From: Prevotella sp.
Lineage (GTDB): Bacteria > Bacteroidota > Bacteroidia > Bacteroidales > Bacteroidaceae
Length of the DNA: 50,841 bases
Direction: 5' to 3'
Assembly (NCBI GenBank): GCA_017415455.1
Contig: JAFQGS010000026.1
Coordinates: forward strand, 1 to 50,841
The notes under the pieces were generated by a model, which saw only the letters and a list, made by a program, of their open reading frames with translations, ran no database searches and was not told the origin of the DNA. Below are positions 6,563 to 50,262 of this stretch, piece after piece (the first letter of the stretch is position 1; each line of letters starts with the position of its first letter). The translations under genes were made by a program, and so were the position numbers.

Positions 6563-9487
6563 TTATTGGTTTCTCATTTCAGAAAAGTAAGGTATGGGGA
6601 AACTTGCGCCATTTGGAATGTGCCATGACTCTTTCTCTCCAATCTTCCATGGGTAGGCTTTTGCATTGTTCAAGTCTTCAAATGCTATTGTGTTGCAGTC
6701 ACTGCTTGCATAAGTGCGATTGTCGAAAATGGCAAGATCGCTATATCCTGCACCGTAGGTACGATAGAATAGGTTTGATGTTGAAGACACCGTACTGCTG
6801 TTCTTCCACACCGAGGCACATCGCCTTATTGATGATTTTGTCTCGGCTGTACCTACGAGATGCCCGCCCTGTACTCCTGCTGTGTTCAGACAGTCGTACA
6901 CCATGCCGTGATCTGCCAGATGTCCTACAATTCCTCCGATGCGGTACAGCTCACCGTTGTTGCATTTCACATTGCCCGCATTTACGCATTGAGACACGAT
7001 GACAGCATTGGCGGTGGATTCCTGCATGAGCTGTGACACCGACACTGCACCGCCCACTGCCGTCGACACCATACCTAACGTCTGGAATATCAGGCTTGCT
7101 CCGCCTGTGGCAAATGCCGATATCGTGCTGAAAGACACCGTTGCCAGTATTGCTATTCCACTGAATGCGGCATGCACTATGTTCTTTGTCTTTATCATGC
7201 TGCTCACATCATCTGCCAGTGCAATGCGCTTGTTGTTGATATTGGTGTTAATGATGGAGTCGTTGTTTGATGTTGTATAGTATTCCAACTGCTTGTCCAT
7301 GCCATTGCTGTAACATTCCGAGAGAGTAGAAGCCTCCAATCCTTCGTACAAGGCTAAATTATCGGTGGATGTTTTGCGCAGCTGGCTCAGCGTTGTTGAT
7401 ATGTCTTTCATATTCTTGTCTACAGTAGTGCTCACGTCTGTGCACAATGTCTCCCATTCCTTCTCGTCATAGTGCTGTGCAAAAGGATATATGAGAATGG
7501 CGTTGTCTATGCCTGCCAGGATAAATGATGTGCCCACAGATATGGCCTGAGCCACTCGTTTCACTGCTCCGGCAGCACTGCCTATCACAACACCCACGAT
7601 AGGACCTACAAAGAAAGCCGACGTTACGTCTACCACAACCATCACCGTCTGTGCGATGCTTACACCCGATGTCTCGTCAATATGACCGAGCTCGCCCACT
7701 ATTCCGCCCACGCTACCGTTGCCGGTAACTGTGCCGAAGTTGCCGCAATGATGGAAAACAGTGTTGTTTGTTGCAATGGCGCATAAGCCTCCTGTGTGGG
7801 TGCTTGCGTTCTTGCTTGTAATATTACCGTAGTTTTGCGAGAAGGCAACAGAGCCGAATTCTGTCTTCGATATAATTCCGGAAACGAAGTTGCGGCCAGA
7901 CACATTACCAGTGTTCACCATGTTGTGAGCCACTCCCAATGAAGTGTTGCCCACGCCGCCAGACACATAGTCGCCCTTACCGCTTATATTTCCCGTGTTG
8001 TATCCTCCGAAACATCCGAACTGAGCTTCTCCGCACAGTCCGCCAATGCTGTTGTCGCCGCTTACGTTGCCGGTATTGCCGCAATAGCGCAGATAGGTGG
8101 TGTTGTATGTCATTGGATCGGATGTTGACCCCGACCCGCCTATGCGTGTGCTTCCAATGATGCCGCCCACTCCGGCATATCCCGTAACCTCTCCGTGGTT
8201 CAATGATGCCGTGATGAACGAGATGCCAGAGCCTCCGCAGATGCCTCCTGTGCCAAATCCGGCAGTCTGTGAGTTGCCAGGTGTATAGCAGGCAGCACCC
8301 TTCACCGTTGCGTTGTTGGTACATCCGTTAACAATCAGCGTGTCGCAACTGCCCACGATGCCGCCGGCTCCGGAATAGTCTGATGTGATGTTGCAGTTTG
8401 CTGCAGTGCTGCAATTGTTTATCGTCAGACTGGAATATATGCCGGTACCTCCCACGATGCCGCCGGCATTGCAAGTGGCATTTATTGTAGTATCGTCTAT
8501 CTTGCACGACGAGATGATGGCGATGGCATTAAGGTCGAGACCTCCCAATATTCCTCCCATCATCATTGTACTGCGTATATTGTCTCCCTCATCATATCCG
8601 CAAACTGTGGCCGACGAAACGCTGCAGTTGCTTATTGAAGAGGCATATCGCTTTTCGCCAGCCTGCAATATGCCGCCGGCTATGACTCCGACGATGCCGT
8701 CGCCTTTCATTTCTGCATTTGTAATGTTCAGACTGTCTATCTTTGCGTCAAGCAGATAGCCGAACAATCCTATTCCCGTCATGTCCCTTGTCTTCGCCCA
8801 GAGGTATGATATTGTGTTAATGGTGCCGTCTGTCGATGCTCCTATGTACGCTCCTCTGAACGGGTTGCTTGCAGTGCCGATAGGCAGCCAGCCGAAGTTG
8901 TTGTCACAACGGAACGATGCGTAATCCATATCGATGTCGGCATCCTGTCGGTAAACGGCTGTTGCGGCATTCTTGTCACCGTCTTCTATGGCGAAGGTCA
9001 ATTCAAGAAGATGGTTGTACGATGTTATGATATACGGATCTTCCTTTGTGCCGCTGCCGAACATCCCGTATGCCGAGTTATAATTGTCAAGTAATGTCGT
9101 TCTTCCGTTCGATATGCTTATCTTGCATCCTAATCCATGCTGCGCTTTCGTATATTTGGAATCTTCATTTCCTGTCAGCTCATATTCCAGATAAAGCAAC
9201 TGATATGTTCCGTCTTTCAATCCGTGCCTAAGCTTCAGGGCTGGATGTTCCCCCGTTTGCACCACCGTTCCGCTGCGCCTTATCGTTGTTCCGTCGGGCG
9301 TCTTTATATAGCATGTGTAGGGCACTTTGGTATATTCCTCTAATCCCTGCGCCAACTCTATAATGTCGTGCGACCCTATAAAGGTGTCGTCAGGATAATC
9401 TGTATCAGGAATGGTAATCTCGTCTTCGCAGGCGGAGAGAGAAAACACAGCAAATAACACTAACAGTAGTTTGGATAGAGTGTTCAT
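6563..9487 (-). CDS. Surface GLUG-repeat lipoprotein with an inserted helical hydrophobic domain
   Basis: 974 aa. Lipobox LFAVFSLSAC with Cys at 20, followed by EDEI, predicting surface exposure. Residues ~21-150 match the non-repeat N-terminal domain of the neighbouring GLUG protein in layout, including a KEDPYIITSYNHL entry to the repeats. About ten GLUG units follow to residue ~602 (MMGGILGG, AGGIVGGT, IGGLCGEA, VGGIVGEL). The solenoid is then broken by ~230 residues of a different kind (603-832): a hydrophobic stretch ~609-665, a polar Thr/Ser/Asp-rich helical part ~670-765 and a second hydrophobic stretch ~770-820. A final GLUG unit (IGGIVGHL, ~850) and a closing domain complete it. Function unknown; the insert is discussed under findings. 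It is first of a two-gene operon. Confidence 0.85.
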   Translation of the reverse strand: MNTLSKLLLVLFAVFSLSACEDEITIPDTDYPDDTFIGSHDIIELAQGLEEYTKVPYTCYIKTPDGTTIRRSGTVVQTGEHPALKLRHGLKDGTYQLLYLEYELTGNEDSKYTKAQHGLGCKISISNGRTTLLDNYNSAYGMFGSGTKEDPYIITSYNHLLELTFAIEDGDKNAATAVYRQDADIDMDYASFRCDNNFGWLPIGTASNPFRGAYIGASTDGTINTISYLWAKTRDMTGIGLFGYLLDAKIDSLNITNAEMKGDGIVGVIAGGILQAGEKRYASSISNCSVSSATVCGYDEGDNIRSTMMMGGILGGLDLNAIAIISSCKIDDTTINATCNAGGIVGGTGIYSSLTINNCSTAANCNITSDYSGAGGIVGSCDTLIVNGCTNNATVKGAACYTPGNSQTAGFGTGGICGGSGISFITASLNHGEVTGYAGVGGIIGSTRIGGSGSTSDPMTYNTTYLRYCGNTGNVSGDNSIGGLCGEAQFGCFGGYNTGNISGKGDYVSGGVGNTSLGVAHNMVNTGNVSGRNFVSGIISKTEFGSVAFSQNYGNITSKNASTHTGGLCAIATNNTVFHHCGNFGTVTGNGSVGGIVGELGHIDETSGVSIAQTVMVVVDVTSAFFVGPIVGVVIGSAAGAVKRVAQAISVGTSFILAGIDNAILIYPFAQHYDEKEWETLCTDVSTTVDKNMKDISTTLSQLRKTSTDNLALYEGLEASTLSECYSNGMDKQLEYYTTSNNDSIINTNINNKRIALADDVSSMIKTKNIVHAAFSGIAILATVSFSTISAFATGGASLIFQTLGMVSTAVGGAVSVSQLMQESTANAVIVSQCVNAGNVKCNNGELYRIGGIVGHLADHGMVYDCLNTAGVQGGHLVGTAETKSSIRRCASVWKNSSTVSSTSNLFYRTYGAGYSDLAIFDNRTYASSDCNTIAFEDLNNAKAYPWKIGEKESWHIPNGASFPIPYFSEMRNQ
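6992..7681 (-). other. Sub-gene region encoding the non-GLUG helical insert (residues ~603-832)
   Basis: These bases encode the part of the GLUG protein without GGxxG units. Two Ala/Val/Gly/Ile-rich segments (e.g. FFVGPIVGVVIGSAAGAV and FSGIAILATVSF) flank a ~100-residue polar helical segment (NMKDISTTLSQLRKT). The insert begins directly after a GLUG unit and ends at SQCVNAGNVKCNN, which is the start of the next unit, so it sits exactly at a repeat boundary. That placement suggests an inserted domain and not a decayed repeat. Confidence 0.6.
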
Positions 9488-9668: not shown

Positions 9669-9803
9669 GCAGACGGGTTGTTGAGCGAAAGCGAGAAACG
9701 GCGTTTCTGCCCGTAAGTAGACACGTGCCTACTGTGGACAATTTTTACGTTTTGCTCAACAACTCGGGCGGATACGGGCTCGGGCGGATACGCTGATCCG
9801 CCC
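9669..9803. repeat. REP-like cluster of inverted repeats
   Basis: Three palindromic parts lie close together. GTTGTTGAGCGAAA (9677-9690) is complementary, with one bulge, to TTTGCTCAACAAC (9751-9763). AGAAACG/CGTTTCT around 9694-9708 is a tight hairpin. GGGCGGAT (9782-9789) pairs with ATCCGCCC (9796-9803), and the word TCGGGCGGATACG occurs twice in tandem just before. The GC-rich hairpins in an otherwise AT-rich spacer resemble extragenic palindromic elements. Confidence 0.55.
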
Positions 9804-9805
9804 CT

Positions 9806-9897
9806 CAAAACCTTATAACCTTATAACCTCACAACCTTATAACCTCACAACCTCATAACCTCACAACCTCAAAACCTTACAACCTCACAACCTTGTC
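9806..9897. repeat. Short degenerate tandem repeats (AACCTTAT / AACCTCAC)
   Basis: About ten units of a 9-10 bp word such as AACCTTAT, AACCTCAC, AACCTCAT follow one another, all purine-poor on the plus strand. They give open frames without coding character. Such strings look like simple-sequence expansion. Confidence 0.7.
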
Positions 9898-9969: not shown

Positions 9970-10386
9970 CGCCCACAAACCTTTCACAAACGCCTAACAA
10001 CACCGCCGCCTCGCCATAAAAACCTCGCTACACTAAAGGAATTCAGTAGTTCTTAAACAACGAAAAGTGATAAGTGATAAACGAAAAGTGATATGAGCAT
10101 TGTATCTTTCACTGTCCACTGTCAGTTGTTCACTTAATCAATTAACTCGTCTACTCGTTAACTTTATTAAAGTAGTTAAAATAGTTAAGTAGTCAGTAGT
10201 TAAGCCATTACTCTTGCTGCAATCAACTTGTCTACTCGTCTACTTGTCCACTCCTCAACTTACAGGTATAAAATTCGTTTAATTCGTGTAATTACTCGAG
10301 CAAAACTCTCATCAACACGTCGTAGTCGTTAATCAAATAACTCGTCAACTTGTCTACTCGTCAACTAAAAAAAGACCTCTTCATTT

Positions 10387-10668: not shown

Positions 10669-10800
10669 ATCATGATATGATGGCATAGTTATCGCAGCAT
10701 GATGACATATTAATCGTAGCATCATGGCATAGTAATCGCAGCACGATGACATATTAATCATGACACGAGGGCATAGTAATCACGACATTATGGCATAGCA
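10669..10800. repeat. 22-bp tandem array, locus A (six units)
   Basis: Six units of exactly 22 bp start at 10669, 10691, 10713, 10735, 10757 and 10779. The consensus is ATCGCAGCATGATG continuing with GCATAGTA. Units differ from each other at several positions but keep length and phase strictly; the CATA core at unit positions 16-19 is kept in all six. The same unit in the same phase occurs at 37091-37266 and 48724-49032. Confidence 0.85.
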
Positions 10801-10895
10801 ACAGCGGTTTTATGTACATGAAACAACAAAAACATCCCGTATTTTTGTTGTGCAAAACACTTAGACAGAACGGACGATAATGGGTTTTAAAAGTT

Positions 10896-10983
10896 GTATT
10901 TGACGCAAATACACTCTGTTTCTACGCCAGATACACTTTGTATCTACGGCAGATACAGATTGTGGATGCACCAAATGCAAAAT
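10896..10983. repeat. Second, unrelated 22-bp tandem array (four units)
   Basis: Four units of 22 bp start at 10896, 10918, 10940 and 10962. The first three share the pattern GTNTCTACGGCAGATACA followed by a T-rich four-base end; the fourth is more diverged (GTGGATGCACCAAATGCA). The unit contains a short dyad, GTATCTA...AGATAC. The period equals that of the neighbouring array although the sequence differs. Confidence 0.65.
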
Positions 10984-11293: not shown

Positions 11294-11839
11294 TCAGAAG
11301 TTGTAATATACTCCTAAAGAGATATTGTTAGAGTCGAAGTCCATGCCCCAGATATCTACCGACTTCTGGTTGCCGGAAGGATTATACTCCTGGAAACCGA
11401 TAAAACCAACATGGGCGACAACGCTGAACACACCGTTGAGGTTGAGCGACAGACCGGGTTTCAAGCCTATGCTCAACTGGTCGCCGTCGCCGTTGTAGTG
11501 ACGGTATCCCGCAGAGCAGTCGCAGAAAATGTCAACAGGACCGGCATTGAGGAATGTGTAACGTGCGTATGGGCTGATTTCAAATGTGCGCGTCAGACGG
11601 TCGTCGTCAACACGCAGATTGCCTTGAGATGACAGGTTGCCCTTCGACCACCCGACGACAACACCGGCAGCCCAGTTCTCGTTGAAGGTGTAGCCGACCT
11701 CCGGCAGCAAACTATATACAACCTTCTTGCTGTCACCATTGTCGTAGCTGGCAATGCCTACATTTCCGCCCACATACATCTGTGCCTTTGCGTTGGCGGC
11801 TAATAGCAATACTGCTATGAGAAATAAAAGCTTTTTCAT
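11294..11839 (-). CDS. Small outer-membrane beta-barrel protein
   Basis: 181 aa with signal peptide MKKLLFLIAVLLLAANAKA and mature start QMYVGGNVGIAS. The rest alternates polar and hydrophobic/aromatic residues in short strands (FEISPYARYTF, LSIGLKPGLSLNL, VVAHVGFIGF) and ends in an aromatic residue, ISLGVYYNF, the C-terminal signature of outer-membrane barrels. The size fits an eight-stranded barrel. Function is unknown; families of this type include structural proteins and small-molecule binders. It has its own promoter and terminator, so it is a single-gene unit not clearly tied to the glycan operons. Confidence 0.85.
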   Translation of the reverse strand: MKKLLFLIAVLLLAANAKAQMYVGGNVGIASYDNGDSKKVVYSLLPEVGYTFNENWAAGVVVGWSKGNLSSQGNLRVDDDRLTRTFEISPYARYTFLNAGPVDIFCDCSAGYRHYNGDGDQLSIGLKPGLSLNLNGVFSVVAHVGFIGFQEYNPSGNQKSVDIWGMDFDSNNISLGVYYNF

Positions 11840-35238: not shown

Positions 35239-36696
35239 TTAGAGCGTTCCTCCACGGGCCTTTACTCTCTTTGCCCATTCCTCGCGCTCTTTCTGCAGGT
35301 TGTAGCCGCGCTTGCTCAGGTAGTTGTTTATTCTACCTTTGTATTTGCCGAATACCTCATGCTTCTTCTTTGAGCTTTCCGCATCAATAGCCAGTTCGCG
35401 TGCTTCTATAAGCCATGCTAATATCTGTGCTTTCTCCTCTTCCTTTAATGTTGGAATCATGTCGCAGTGAGCATCGTATGTCACTTTCACAACGTTGAAA
35501 GTCATGACGTCTTTCACAGTTGTGATGTGGTGAGGCTTGAGATATTTTGACAGGTCTGCGTCAAAGGCGAAATGCGAGCGATACAGTTTTGAGTCGCACT
35601 GAGCCTCTGCCAGTTGCTTGTTTGTCTTTTTTACAGAGTCGCGCTCCTCATAAATGTCGTTGAGCTTGAAATAGCGGTTCGCTATTATGTTTCTCACGTT
35701 CTGTCCCATTGGGGTCCATGTTATTCCGAGCTGGTCTGTAGCCTTCTGAGAGCGTCCTATGATTGCGTTCACGTATGCCGCGTCGCGTCCTGCGCTGTCG
35801 AGTTTCACCTCTGCCTCAGGGTAGGAGTTGAATATTGTCTTCAGGTAATGAACATTGTTGCCATAGTTCATCTTTACGTTTCTCACCATCTTTACGTCTC
35901 TGCTGCGCTCAACGAACAGCCAGCCGCTCCAGTTCATCTTGTCGAGAGTGGCCTTTATGGCGTGCATGTCAATGGCGGAGTCGTTGCGGAGCCATACCCC
36001 GTCAGTGTTTGATGCGTGGATAGCACAGATGTTCTCCGCACCAAGTTTCTTCATGTCTTTCACAATGTCCCAGTTGTTCTCTATGATTGTCTGGAACTTG
36101 TAGAAAATCTTTATTCCGTCAGAGTTAATCTCTTTTAATAGCTTCTTGTTGCCCTTTGCGTCGAGAGGAGTGTCTATGCCAATCACTTTTCCGCGTTTCT
36201 TTGCCATTTCTCCCATTTCGTGCAGGCGTTTGACGATAATATTGCGTAGCGCAACGGAGTCGGTCCAGTTGTTCCCGCTGCCTCCTAAAGGAAGGAATGC
36301 CACGCTTGCTCCCATGATGTCCATGGTGTTGAGGCAGTCCTCTGTCAGCCATTTGTAGCTGTCTTTCTTTGCCAGGTTCTGTCCGTAGAATCCTGACATA
36401 GCCACTGCGCCAACCTTAATACCGAGGCTGTCTGCTGTGCGTGTGAATATCTCTGCCATCTTAGGGTCGCGCATCTTGTTGTCGAAAGAGTCGCGTCTGC
36501 CAAGTCCTCCCATGTCCATCTCCAAACCGTCGCAACCCAGTTCGTGTGCCAGCTTGAACTCTCCAAGTTTCTGGCGTTTGAGAACCATCCAGTCGCATAC
36601 TCCAATGTTATAACGGTTTTGGGCGATTGTCAACTCAGGGAGCAGCATACCCCCTATGAAAAGTGTAAAAAGTACGGTTTTACGTAAAAAACTCAT
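35239..36696 (-). CDS. Secreted sugar isomerase-like TIM barrel fused to DUF3826
   Basis: 485 aa, signal peptide ending LLPELTIAQ. Residues ~28-290 form a xylose-isomerase/AP-endonuclease-2 type TIM barrel (FKLAHELGCDGLEMDMGG, GAVAMSGFYGQN, GASVAFLPLGGSG, GKVIGIDTPL, ENICAIHASNTDG, WSGWLFVERSRD), with acidic and His residues at strand ends that could bind a metal. Residues ~300-485 match my memory of DUF3826, a domain found in Bacteroidetes pectin loci (SKKKHEVFGKYKGRINNYLS). First gene of the ten-gene operon, 48 bp before GH127. An isomerase-like fold outside the cytoplasm is unusual; it may act on free sugars or bind them. Enzymatic activity is not established. Confidence 0.75.
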   Translation of the reverse strand: MSFLRKTVLFTLFIGGMLLPELTIAQNRYNIGVCDWMVLKRQKLGEFKLAHELGCDGLEMDMGGLGRRDSFDNKMRDPKMAEIFTRTADSLGIKVGAVAMSGFYGQNLAKKDSYKWLTEDCLNTMDIMGASVAFLPLGGSGNNWTDSVALRNIIVKRLHEMGEMAKKRGKVIGIDTPLDAKGNKKLLKEINSDGIKIFYKFQTIIENNWDIVKDMKKLGAENICAIHASNTDGVWLRNDSAIDMHAIKATLDKMNWSGWLFVERSRDVKMVRNVKMNYGNNVHYLKTIFNSYPEAEVKLDSAGRDAAYVNAIIGRSQKATDQLGITWTPMGQNVRNIIANRYFKLNDIYEERDSVKKTNKQLAEAQCDSKLYRSHFAFDADLSKYLKPHHITTVKDVMTFNVVKVTYDAHCDMIPTLKEEEKAQILAWLIEARELAIDAESSKKKHEVFGKYKGRINNYLSKRGYNLQKEREEWAKRVKARGGTL

Positions 36697-36835: not shown

Positions 36836-37090
36836 GCAATAAACTTTAATAATACGAAATGCCAAACAGAAAAATATAATTATGTTATCTTTTTGTATTC
36901 AATAAATCGTGCGTTTTCTGTTGGGCAGGAGATTTTTCTGCTCAAAAAACTGGCAGGAGAATGGGCGAATCCTAAAATTTTTTTCGTTGACTCGGAATGT
37001 GGCTAATAATTTGACATGTATATGAGGAAAAATCCTTCGAACCGCGCAGAATGCTGGAAATATATCTGTGGAACTCGTCATTACACCTTT

Positions 37091-37266
37091 ATGGCGGTGC
37101 CATGGCATAGTAATCGCCGCATCATCGCTTTGTCAAGGCGGCAGGATGGCTTTGTCAAGGCGCTACGATTACATAGCCATCGTACTGCGATTACGTTGTA
37201 ATCATAGCACGATAAAAACGTAATCGCACCGCCCTGACGTTGTAATCGCACCGCCATCTCATATGA
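37091..37266. repeat. 22-bp tandem array, locus B (eight units)
   Basis: Eight units of exactly 22 bp start at 37091, 37113, 37135, 37157, 37179, 37201, 37223 and 37245. They use the same register as locus A: ATGGCGGTGCCATGGCATAGTA split at the same points, next ATCGCCGCATCATC followed by GCTTTGTC, and so on. Individual units are more diverged than at locus A, but no unit has gained or lost a base. Confidence 0.82.
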
Positions 37267-37566
37267 AACGGCGAGGTCATTTGATAGAAACGGCTGGCAT
37301 TTCTATATAAAATATAGGAACTATAGTGCCTATAGGGACTATAGAATTTATGGAAATCGTGCTAAAAAAATCGCTTCTCGGCTGCCTTCGGGCATCTTTT
37401 TGTTTTGTTAACACGAAAAAAGTGGCGCCGCGGTGCGGGCGAGAAAGCATGAAAGGGCATCAAACGCAGTGCGGAATTTTCTATTTTGAGAGTTGCGTTT
37501 GTCAAAAAAAAAGAATAAATCCGCATCTTTATTTGTGTGGTTTGCTTGTGATACAAAATAAATCAT

Positions 37567-37853: not shown

Positions 37854-39536
37854 ATGAAAAGAAAATCAACTATTGTGTTACTTTCTTTGTGTCTTGGAAC
37901 ACTTACGGCAAGTGCTCAATATCCTCAAGAGCCAAAGGAAGTGAAAGAGAAAGTGGCAAAGATGATGGAGGCATGCCGTGCGCATTCAGACAGTGCTTGG
38001 GCTGTTGCGTTGCCAATCATTGAGAAAGAGGCAGCTGAGGGACGCCCGTATATTCCTTTCGCTGATCGTCCAACAGATTTACCTCAGGCGGATATTCCAT
38101 CATTCCCTGGTGCTGAAGGTGGTGGTATGTTCAGTTTTGGCGGACGCGGAGGAAAAGTTCTCACTGTGACAAACCTTAATGATGATGGTCCGGGCTCATT
38201 GCGCTGGGCATGTGAGCAGGGTGGTGCCCGTATCGTTGTGTTCAATGTGTCGGGAATGATTCGCTTGAAGTCACCTCTTATTATCCGTGCCCCTTATATA
38301 ACAATTGCAGGACAGACAGCTCCTGGTGATGGCGTTTGCGTAACAGGTGAGTCTGTTTGGGTAAACACACACGACGTGGTGGTTCGTCATATGCGCTTCC
38401 GTCGCGGTGAGACAGGTGTGGGACGCCGTGATGACTCTTTCGGAGGTAATCCGGTAGGAAACATCATGCTCGACCATTTGTCTTGCTCTTTCGGACTGGA
38501 CGAGAATATCTCTTTCTATCGTCACATGTTCCGTCCGGGAGAGACATATAAGGAACTGAAATTGCCTACAGTAAACGTTACTATACAGAACACTATATCT
38601 GCAAAGTGTCTTGACACATACAATCACTCTTTCGGCTCAACTCTCGGAGGAGAGAACTGTGCGTTCGTGCGTAACCTATGGGCGAGCAACACAGGACGTA
38701 ACCCGTCTATCGGATGGAACGGTATATTCAACTTCGTAAACAACGTGGTGTTCAACTGGGTTCATCGCTCTGTTGACGGTGGTGACTATACTGCGCTGTA
38801 TAACATTTACAACAACTACTTTAAGCCAGGTCCTGCAACACCGCTGAATACAACAGTGGGTCACAGATTCCTTAAACCGGAGGCTGGACTGAGCAGAAAC
38901 GCGAAGAAAAGATATGGACGTGTTTACTGCGAGGGTAACATCATGGAGGGTAACGACTCTGTGACTGCTGACAACTGGAAGGGTGTTCATATTGAGGATA
39001 TGGACGGAACAGGCGAATACGAGGCTCTCATGAAGTGGACAAAGCCACATCCACATCCTTATTATCAGGTTATGGAAGCTAAGGAGGCTTACTATTTTGT
39101 TCTTGACAACGTAGGAGCGACTCTTCCTGTACGCGACCAGCTTGACAAGGACATTATCATGGAGGTGAAAACTGGCAAGCCATTCTATTCAGAGGATGCA
39201 AAGCCGGATACAGCATTGTTTAAGTATCGTCGTTTGCCGAAGGACTCTTGGAAACTCGGTATTATCTCCGATCCTCAGCAGGTAGGCGGTCTGCCGGTAT
39301 ATAGCAACGACTGGAAACCTTATAAGGACTCAGACCTTGACGGTATGCCTGACGCATGGGAGAAGGCTAACGGTCTTGACCCCAAAGATCCGTCAGATGC
39401 CAACAAGGACTGCACTGGTGACGGCTATACAAATATTGAGAAATACATCAATGGTATAAGCACAAAAGAGAAGGTTGATTGGACAAATCTGAAGAACAAT
39501 CATGATACTCTTTATGGAAAGACAAGTTTGATGTAA
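37854..39536 (+). CDS. Secreted PL1 pectate lyase with C-terminal Ca-binding repeat
   Basis: 560 aa, signal peptide MKRKSTIVLLSLCLGTLTASA. A ~60-residue N-terminal segment (VAKMMEACRAHSDSAWAVAL) precedes the PL1 beta-helix, which opens with PSFPGAEGGGMFSFGGRGGKVLTVTNLNDDGPGSLRWA, written here only as a recognisable order of motifs: PGAEGGG, GGRGG, TNLNDDGPGSLR. RHMRFRRGE and NIMLDHLSCSFGLDE carry the expected Arg and Asp residues of the calcium/catalytic site. Residues ~490-535 hold Ca-binding turns (DSDLDGMPDAWEKANGLD, DCTGDGYTNIEKYI). Family members cleave homogalacturonan by beta-elimination; here the enzyme would free RG-II-bearing fragments. Monocistronic, divergent from the operon, followed by terminators. 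Confidence 0.9.
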   Translation: MKRKSTIVLLSLCLGTLTASAQYPQEPKEVKEKVAKMMEACRAHSDSAWAVALPIIEKEAAEGRPYIPFADRPTDLPQADIPSFPGAEGGGMFSFGGRGGKVLTVTNLNDDGPGSLRWACEQGGARIVVFNVSGMIRLKSPLIIRAPYITIAGQTAPGDGVCVTGESVWVNTHDVVVRHMRFRRGETGVGRRDDSFGGNPVGNIMLDHLSCSFGLDENISFYRHMFRPGETYKELKLPTVNVTIQNTISAKCLDTYNHSFGSTLGGENCAFVRNLWASNTGRNPSIGWNGIFNFVNNVVFNWVHRSVDGGDYTALYNIYNNYFKPGPATPLNTTVGHRFLKPEAGLSRNAKKRYGRVYCEGNIMEGNDSVTADNWKGVHIEDMDGTGEYEALMKWTKPHPHPYYQVMEAKEAYYFVLDNVGATLPVRDQLDKDIIMEVKTGKPFYSEDAKPDTALFKYRRLPKDSWKLGIISDPQQVGGLPVYSNDWKPYKDSDLDGMPDAWEKANGLDPKDPSDANKDCTGDGYTNIEKYINGISTKEKVDWTNLKNNHDTLYGKTSLM

Positions 39537-48365: not shown

Positions 48366-48463
48366 AAATCGATAGTTAAAGTTATACATAAATATATTTA
48401 TATAGATATTCTCAATGTTATTAGCATCCCCCTCGGGTTCTTTCATAGGTATATATTAATGTG

Positions 48464-48471: not shown

Positions 48472-48723
48472 CACTTTTTTTCTAAATAAAGTATAATTAA
48501 TGCAGAAAAAGTGTTTAGGAATTGTAAATTGCATTGCTTTATGTTGTGAAAGGCATGCGGATAATCGTCAAGTGCGATACATTCCGCTCTGGTTTTTGCG
48601 GCAAAAGTATCGCATTGGGTAGCGGAAGGATAGGGATGGTTAATGCCTGAATGCGGTGCGCATTGTGGCTGCATAGGCATTGAACGCAAGGTCTTTAGGG
48701 CGTGGTCGCATCATTGCGCGGTG

Positions 48724-49032
48724 ATGATTTTATGATTGCATAGTGATGATGACGTGATTGCATAGTCGTGGCGGTGCGATAACGTTGAGATGCTGCTATG
48801 ATGGCATAGCGATGGCGGTATGATTACATTGCGATGGCTGCACCATGACATAGCCATCGTGTCATGATGGCAAAGCAACGGCAGTGCCATAAGATAGTAA
48901 TCATCACTATGATGAGATAGCGATGACGGGGTGGTGAAGATGTAATGCTGGTGCGATAGATATGCAATGATGAGATGATAAGTATGTAATGATGGAATGA
49001 TAAATATGTAATGACAAGGTGATGGCATATTT
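48724..49032. repeat. 22-bp tandem array, locus C (fourteen units)
   Basis: Fourteen units start at 48724, 48746, 48768, 48790, 48812, 48834, 48856, 48878, 48900, 48923, 48945, 48967, 48989 and 49011; all are 22 bp except the ninth (23). Typical units are ATGCTGCTATGATG followed by GCATAGCG, and ATCGTGTCATGATG followed by GCAAAGCA. The register and the GATGRCATAG core are those of loci A and B. The last four units drift toward ATGATGNGATGATAA-type sequence. Confidence 0.85.
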
Positions 49033-49070
49033 ATCACAACACAATAAAGGCTGGTGTGTGGAAACAAAAA

Positions 49071-49140: not shown

Positions 49141-50262
49141 TTATTTGTTCATGAACTTCTTGCCATTCTTTATAACAATACCCTTGTAGTTCTTGCTAAC
49201 TGCCTGACCTGCAAGGTTGTACATAGGAGCGTTTGCGTCCTCTGCCTTACCTGCCTCGATCTCCTCGATGCCAGCAGCTTCGTCTGGAGTGAACTCCCAA
49301 CCGTTGAAACCGAGCTGTGTATTGTCGTTGAATACATAGTATGTCTTGCCTGCTTCCATGTTGAATGTTACATAACCCCAGAATGCCTGATTACCAGCAC
49401 CAATGATGTAAGGAGCTGTATCCTCTCCTGTAGCAGCATCAATCTTTGCTGCGTCGTGGATAGCCTGAATTTCCTCGTGAGAGAGATACTTCTTGCCGTT
49501 GTTTGTCTCAAACTCGCCATCGCCGTCAAGGTCCTGCTTGTCGTCCTGGCCGTTGATGTAACCTTCGTATTTTGGCTTGATAGGAAGAGCTGTTGTACCG
49601 TCTACAACGTAGAACTTACGATTACCCTTGTTCACCCAAACACCAATTTTGATTGTACCAGCAACAGATGCTGTGAACTGATAATGGAGACCAACCTCTG
49701 GTACACCAAGGCTACCGTCTGGATTGTAAGTTGTTCCTAATGGACGATACTTTGTATATTCCTTATCGTTGTAGTAATATGTTGCAGGCATGCCATCTGT
49801 CATAACAACCTCAGCTGTCATTTCAGCAAAAGGATTTCCTGTACCCTGAATCCATGCCCAGTTGATGTCGCCTTGGTTCTTCTGCTGCCACTTGATGTCT
49901 TTCCAAGAGTTTACTGTACCGTCTTCGTTGATGTCGCAGTGTGTATCCTCTGTGTTGTCTGCAACGCCATCGCCGTCAGCATCTGTTGGATCATCTGGCA
50001 CGTCTGCAGGATCTGCACCACCGATAGCAACGCAAGTAACACTTGCAGTTTTCATTTCAACTACAGAACCTTTCTCGGTCTTGTTTGTTGCAACGTCGCC
50101 AAAAGTACCGTCACCGTTGTCTGGCAAAACAGCCTGGAACTCAGGAGACAATGTCATCACGCCTGTGTCTTTGTCGCGAGAGATAGCTGTGTATGTCTCT
50201 GTCTGCGCATTCGCACTCACTGCAAGCATTGCAACTGAAATAAGAGTAAAAATTTTCTTCAT
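49141..50262 (-). CDS. Secreted protein with Ca-binding loops and a Prevotella-type C-terminal tail
   Basis: 373 aa, signal peptide MKKIFTLISVAMLAVSANA. Two Asp-rich loops look like calcium-binding turns: ~91-115 (DADGDGVADNTED, DINEDGTVN) and ~240-250 (DLDGDGEFE). The middle is beta-rich (GLHYQFTASVAGTIKIGVWVN; AFWGYVTFNMEAGKTYYVF), like a carbohydrate-binding or adhesion sandwich. The C-terminus (MYNLAGQAVSKNYKGIVI then KNGKKFMNK) is a recurrent tail on secreted Prevotella proteins, thought to be related to sorting. No enzymatic motif. It lies upstream of the SusC operon but has its own promoter and terminator; a role in the same glycan response is possible only by position. Confidence 0.75.
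   Translation of the reverse strand: MKKIFTLISVAMLAVSANAQTETYTAISRDKDTGVMTLSPEFQAVLPDNGDGTFGDVATNKTEKGSVVEMKTASVTCVAIGGADPADVPDDPTDADGDGVADNTEDTHCDINEDGTVNSWKDIKWQQKNQGDINWAWIQGTGNPFAEMTAEVVMTDGMPATYYYNDKEYTKYRPLGTTYNPDGSLGVPEVGLHYQFTASVAGTIKIGVWVNKGNRKFYVVDGTTALPIKPKYEGYINGQDDKQDLDGDGEFETNNGKKYLSHEEIQAIHDAAKIDAATGEDTAPYIIGAGNQAFWGYVTFNMEAGKTYYVFNDNTQLGFNGWEFTPDEAAGIEEIEAGKAEDANAPMYNLAGQAVSKNYKGIVIKNGKKFMNK

Follow-up and report, generated by a model that had tools for sequence, protein, structure and literature searches.

A row of 22-bp units in one gap of a Prevotella sp. contig (GenBank assembly GCA_017415455.1, contig JAFQGS010000026.1, of which positions 1 to 50,841 of the forward strand form the window analyzed here) raises the question of what holds such a period constant and whether the row belongs to a wider family. 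The initial annotation had described six units of strictly 22 bp in this row (array A), had placed two further rows (arrays B and C) in the same intergenic family, and had proposed that length is kept while sequence drifts. The six 22-bp units of array A are confirmed, and the identity of each array with itself at a lag of 22 is 0.74 for A, 0.62 for B and 0.54 for C, against dinucleotide-shuffle means of 0.25–0.27 (z of about 10), with none of 2000 shuffles reaching the value of A, B or C at any lag from 10 to 40. When the profiles of the three arrays were scored against one another in register, z lay between 11.5 and 17.7 and none of 1000 shuffles did as well in each of the six directions; the arrays are thus related beyond composition and constitute one family, across whose three members the retention of length under sequence drift is supported. 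The word “strict” is not supported as it stands, since array C contains a single 23-bp step (Table 1).

By a simple longest-ORF rule for gene calls, array A lies between minus-strand ORFs, one ending at 11294 and the other starting at 9487, and array C likewise between minus-strand ORFs, one starting at 48446 and the other ending at 49141. The gap that holds array A also holds array D, which the initial annotation of 10669 to 10800 does not list. The 22-bp period of array D is clear (z 7.5, 0 of 2000 shuffles), and its profile scores at chance level against those of A and C (215 and 86 of 1000 shuffles) and marginally against that of B (9 of 1000). Tandem arrays of 8/16 bp also occur near array A, at 9803–9893 (CCTCACAA) and 10223–10261 (TCAACTTGTCCACTCC), and several copies of the dispersed element that contains array B have a tandem of the second type after their right end.

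Table 1. Arrays and associated element in the window.
Feature	Position	Strand	Description
Array A	10669..10800	+	Six 22-bp units; core CATAG/CATAT; half-sites around GAT and ATC; linker variable
Array D	10894..10963	+	About three 22-bp units; GATACA..TGTATC arms, dyad; letters unlike those of A
Array B	37081..37256	+	Some eight units of 22 bp, forming the left portion of the ~440-bp element
Array C	48716..49040	+	About 14–15 units; single 23-bp step near 48904 (by eye)
Dispersed non-coding element, ~440 bp, containing array B	37078..37519	+	Left and right ends unlike (by eye)
Conserved right end of element	37481..37508	+	29 own-genome matches at up to 3 mismatches

The initial annotation had staked its claim on such arrays being both more frequent and more strongly phased at 22 bp than shuffled DNA would allow. 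As to frequency, the unit pattern at up to two mismatches has 313 matches in the window's own genome and 68 for the reversed control. Array B, which had been taken for a free-standing array, belongs instead to a dispersed element of about 440 bp that sits between two divergent ORFs, the minus-strand one starting at 36696 and the plus-strand one at 37854. Fifteen copies of this element were aligned, some of them partial; long and short copies differ by about one 22-bp unit or more, and, by eye in the 15-copy alignment, the left and right ends are unlike and there are no terminal inverted repeats. Matches to the left end in the own genome may fall on internal units. The right end has no match near array A or C, none at up to two mismatches in 59 other genomes, and, as an exact pattern, 0 matches in named genomes. 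A search for an empty insertion site or a target-site duplication, made in six relatives upstream of the homologues, turned up no alignment in intergenic DNA, and for the genes beside arrays C and A the eight relatives searched gave distant matches only (at most 47% and 49% identity). Carriage by phage was rejected on 0 matches in IMG/VR, where the two-unit and right-end patterns were searched as exact matches.

Across the genus, unit matches are concentrated in a few genomes. Among 200 genus genomes (the own genome included), exact unit matches number 55 in G000 and 219 in G115, at most 7 in the others and at most 3 in controls. A two-unit pattern allowing up to two mismatches, surveyed in 398 genus genomes, was found 230 times in G115, 85 in G000, 49 in G261, 38 in G291, 34 in G327, 17 in G356 (which has an 11-bp unit), 14 in G184 and 9 in G199, with at most 5 matches in the rest and at most 2 in controls. 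The letters of the unit are species-specific, each species having its own variant, and a pattern fitted to the variants gave 165 matches in G261, 177 in G291, 157 in G327, 76 in G184 and 38 in G199, together with 1 in G331, 4 in G409 and 0 in G139 (controls 0–2). G115, one of the array-rich genus members, is the rumen MAG “uncultured Prevotella sp. RUG137”; in a named collection, from which the own genome may be excluded, 49 of 50 two-unit-pattern loci lie in RUG137 and one in Myroides albus, the latter (L176) being a lone match to the two-unit pattern in a distant Bacteroidota genome.

Several species show further arrangements of their own. In one species, G356, the unit of the arrays at L318–L321 is 11 bp long (CATAGGCATCT), half the 22-bp length, and at two loci of RUG137 (L117, L129) mosaics of other palindromic or repeated intergenic sequences adjoin 22-bp arrays. 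A second module stands by the arrays at five loci of G261 (L287, L289, L298, L299, L301), consisting of TTTGTCAA, then ATTACAAG or similar, then TTGATTATCAG or similar. At five loci of G291 (L303, L308, L309, L311, L246) the first unit is inverted and the end is its mirror image, which yields the inverted ends TTTGCGA...TCGCAAA.

Within each of five species the units of one array are more alike (identity 0.75–0.89) than units of different arrays (0.50–0.79), which argues that arrays grow locally; the between-array value is 0.72–0.79 in four of the five and 0.50 in the window's own genome. Arrays of two species also stand beside the same gene, each species keeping its own type of unit, at L283/L303, L296/L307 and L266/L297 (the last pair behind feoB), and less surely at L273/L285 and L267/L302, and the G251 homologue of the window gene at 37854–39536 has, by eye, a two-unit array upstream. 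Such cases are few, and they are no more than suggestive, since most of the loci in the comparison had been picked for carrying arrays.

A period shared by sequences this dissimilar invites a count made without any motif. Up to 20 kb was sampled from each of 60 genomes, 20 from the genus, 20 from other genera within the family and 20 from outside the family (some contigs being shorter), and a locus was scored for a lag wherever 29 or more of 44 comparisons in an intergenic stretch matched at that lag. In the genus set, lag 22 gave 10 loci in 9 of 20 genomes, against 0 at lag 20, 3 at lag 21 and 0 at lag 23; the other genera gave 4 loci at lag 22 in 3 of 20 genomes, and the other families, a small sample with 29 kb of intergenic DNA, had loci in 0 of 20. 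Base-shuffled genus sequence yielded no lag-22 loci, so that the phasing, too, is sharper than in shuffled DNA, as the initial annotation had anticipated. The genus regions were not wholly blind, having been chosen with contig coordinates from the pattern searches (14 of the 20 contain a unit-pattern match), and the sets from other genera and other families are unpicked contig starts. One of the ten genus loci (L362) is itself a unit-pattern match; with all such matches masked, lag 22 keeps 9 loci in 8 of 20 genus genomes, joint top with lag 7 (9 loci). Among intergenic arrays delimited by TRF, period 22 accounts for 11 of 50 in the genus set and for 0 of 17 in the other-family set, and the period-22 units are mostly unlike in sequence. 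The other strong series in the genus sample (L343–L362) is 7 bp with its multiples (14, 21, 28, 35, 42), and two arrays of 23-bp units, with a short palindrome at the core, occur in one genome from another family (L338, from 8223 and from 9623 onward).

Symmetry is the other property that many of these arrays share. When the column profile of each array was compared with permuted columns of the same profile, dyad symmetry was significant in window arrays B (p 0.0002), C (p 0.007) and D (p 0.0002), and not in array A alone (p 0.55). Dyad symmetry at p < 0.05 was found in 13 of 21 arrays of mostly unlike sequence, a set made up of the ten genus lag-22 loci (L362 included), two genus arrays found by TRF only, four arrays from other genera and five others (window D, L041, L103, L397 and L401, with L389 and L322 excluded). 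The combined p of about 1e-22 for these 21 arrays is overstated because the test is somewhat liberal and at the 0.05 level lets through 12.5% of intergenic segments drawn at random (25 of 200, folded at 22). With extents taken from TRF, symmetry is significant in 7 of 16 period-22 arrays (combined p 1e-6); among arrays with a period other than 22 it is so in 2 of 32 (combined p 0.30). A simpler and weaker test, applied to TRF consensus units, detects symmetry in 2 of the 11 period-22 arrays of the genus set.

Conservation differs along the unit. In five species the arms and core carry 1.0–1.6 bits per column and the linker 0.5–0.8; since picking units by motif (at up to 3 or 4 mismatches) raises the information of the arms, the measurement was repeated on TRF-delimited arrays, where the values are 0.95–1.67 and 0.31–0.98, respectively. 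Of the TRF-delimited arrays, 17/26, 47/60, 15/19, 8/9 and 6/7 were kept, those dropped being duplicates and arrays mismatching the species consensus. The arrays show an iteron-like arrangement, namely tandem sites at fixed spacing with a conserved site and a freer linker. A CRISPR array was rejected, as the units abut with only a 5-bp variable linker and no unique spacers of regular length. The initial annotation had further supposed that the repeated CATAG core would fall on one face of the helix, and here the arithmetic is unkind: at 10.5 bp per turn 22 bp makes 2.1 turns, 22 is not 21, and the sites would lie only roughly on one face.

Whether these units act as DNA or as RNA can be approached through their arms and their surroundings. 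Palindromic units can fold, and arrays of small hairpins might be transcribed as terminators or as processing or regulatory RNA; the median distance from array to gene 3′ ends (106–247 bp) is compatible with such a role, as is a mild over-representation of convergent gaps, which hold 27 of 92 arrays and make up 60 of 305 gaps in the background (p 0.06); the excess is greatest in G261 (9/18 versus 4/35) and G000 (5/13 versus 10/66). An RNA-level role is nevertheless very improbable, because the arms show almost no compensatory change: with nine pair positions tested per species in five species, 45 in all, only pair 6–10 of G115 exceeds all shuffles in covariation (0.90 versus at most 0.87), and pair 3–13 of the same species equals the shuffle maximum, a near absence that is expected of two half-sites read independently. 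Nor is there an overall strand preference, the core in tandem gaps running with the genes in 17 cases and against them in 20 (p 0.74, with 13 strand-ambiguous arrays set aside), even if G115 alone leans toward the opposite strand (5 same, 14 opposite). Rfam gave no match in the window at the gathering score and only tRNA at 12 array loci with E up to 0.1. Arrays occupy convergent, divergent and tandem gaps, and with every gap type in use and only a mild convergent excess, placement as promoters or terminators was rejected; a coding role was rejected as well, since 22 is not divisible by 3 and ORFs of at least 100 aa overlap 12 of 123 arrays. The ten neighboring genes examined belong to diverse, unrelated families. 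Scarce covariation, the lack of overall strand bias, the use of all gap types, the diversity of neighbors and the Rfam result together favor double-stranded, orientation-free sites.

Several known systems resemble these arrays in part. Plasmid iterons and the site clusters of partition or nucleoid proteins are tandem sites of about 20 bp at fixed spacing for a DNA-binding protein, and the tandem arrangement and fixed spacing are found here as well; the difference is that the present arrays occupy many chromosomal intergenic loci, that no replicon or cognate protein was seen, and that the letters are replaced between species. The STRR heptamers of cyanobacteria are likewise intergenic tandem repeats common in a clade, but their period is 7 and that of the present arrays 22 (the separate 7-bp series notwithstanding). 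With MITEs and other small non-autonomous elements the window's ~440-bp element shares being non-coding, repeated and bounded; its ends, however, are unlike, and other species carry the array without the element, while some arrays in G291 do have inverted ends.

REP/BIME sequences and their RAYT partners come close in being short, palindromic, intergenic and species-specific, with tens to hundreds of copies, but differ from the head-to-tail 22-bp spacing seen here, with its site and linker and its period kept across unlike sequences. The Y1/HUH transposase domain PF01797 was found in 8 of 12 genomes and in none of the array-rich G000 (91% complete), G261 (99%), G291 (75%) and G327 (86%), its absence from incomplete genomes being weaker evidence; a general partnership with RAYT was rejected on these four genomes, and a REP hairpin kept by arm pairing was rejected on the single pair position of 45 above all shuffles. 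Passages of PMC3733652 describe no such 22-bp phasing or fixed-period family, and no such fixed-period family is described in passages of PMC8040213 or PMC4060949. Searches of the open-access literature, from which most subscription papers are missing, brought up no paper on a 22-bp intergenic array in Prevotella or the Bacteroidales, and to that extent agree with the initial annotation, whose author knew of no Bacteroidales element of this form.

The explanation that we prefer, tentatively and as something short of probable, is that each array forms a chromosomal row of double-stranded, symmetric sites to which a putative fast-evolving protein would bind. The unit would comprise a site of about 17 bp, made of two half-sites and a short core, plus a 5-bp variable linker, an arrangement that would set neighboring sites 22 bp apart; an array would thereby offer a regular surface on which, we infer, several protein dimers may bind side by side and cooperatively. 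Fast change in the specificity of the putative protein would account for unit letters that are particular to each species, at many loci, alongside a spacing and, in most arrays, a symmetry that persist. Local copying would proceed by tandem duplication, with spread to new gaps taking place in the window's genome partly as passengers of the small non-coding repeated element, and chromosome organization or insulation may be among the roles. The initial annotation's idea of a protein-binding array is thus favored here also, on the strength of the dyad excess, the conserved arms and core, the near lack of covariation and the absence of overall strand bias, the binder itself being putative. There is a counterpoint in that 8 of the 21 arrays are individually non-symmetric, as is window array A, which is not one of the 21; a mobile repeat could likewise keep a palindrome, and a 22-bp period does not fit a whole number of B-DNA turns.

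The main rival to the protein-site model, which we regard as rather unlikely, is that the units and the ~440-bp element are selfish, non-autonomous mobile DNA, dispersed by a transposase or recombinase that recognizes palindromes and without any role for the host. It draws strength from the 29 right-end copies in the own genome, with at least 15 alignable copies, some partial, from the very high copy number in a few species, and from the many repeated flanks in G000 (9/17 left, 11/17 right) and G115 (36/47 left, 37/47 right). Several arrays in G291 and G261 also have recurring end sequences together with an inverted or distinct first unit, and TTGATWATCA (one mismatch) lies within 200 bp of 10/19 and 6/11 arrays in these two species, but of only 0/23 in G000, 7/56 in G115 and 1/7 in G327. 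The flanks are mostly unique in G261 (repeated in 0/18 left, 3/18 right), G291 (repeated in 1/9 on either side) and G327 (repeated in 1/7 on either side), which argues that bare arrays spread there without a chassis. Moreover, the ends of the window element are unlike, no target-site duplication emerged, the search of 12 genomes for Y1_Tnp (IS200/RAYT-type) gave no match in four array-rich ones, of which one is 99% complete, and transposition is not expected to give a fixed 22-bp spacing over unlike sequences.

Length that is fixed and sequence that is free between species could also be left behind by a replication or repair process that duplicates exactly 22 bp near palindromes, in which case the arrays would be a neutral by-product of mutation, and the greater likeness of units within than between arrays in all five species measured fits such local duplication. 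We consider this improbable, as it leaves unexplained both the consensus that unlinked arrays share (strong in four of the five species, weaker in the own genome) and the better conservation of arms and core than of the linker. The preferred model of symmetric protein sites may also be carried one step further: across the family, satellite-like arrays would be set by geometry, with the 22-bp spacing and the dyad kept and the letters replaced between species, as if a fast-evolving chromosome-organizing protein and its sites co-evolve, a bacterial counterpart of the fast-evolving satellites of centromeres. This extension is unlikely as it stands.

Overall, these arrays are a real, dispersed class of intergenic sequence in which geometry rather than sequence is constant, and the class is undescribed as far as searches of the open-access literature show, most subscription papers lying outside them. 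Bacterial repeat families are normally defined by their sequence; what is constant here is the length, often together with symmetry, and it is common to unlike sequences from many species of a genus that is large and lives in gut and rumen. Should a protein read the sites, it would represent a DNA-binding system not yet described, having numerous clusters of sites on the chromosome of each genome and a specificity that changes very fast; if none does, the arrays would point to a novel process that makes 22-bp duplications.
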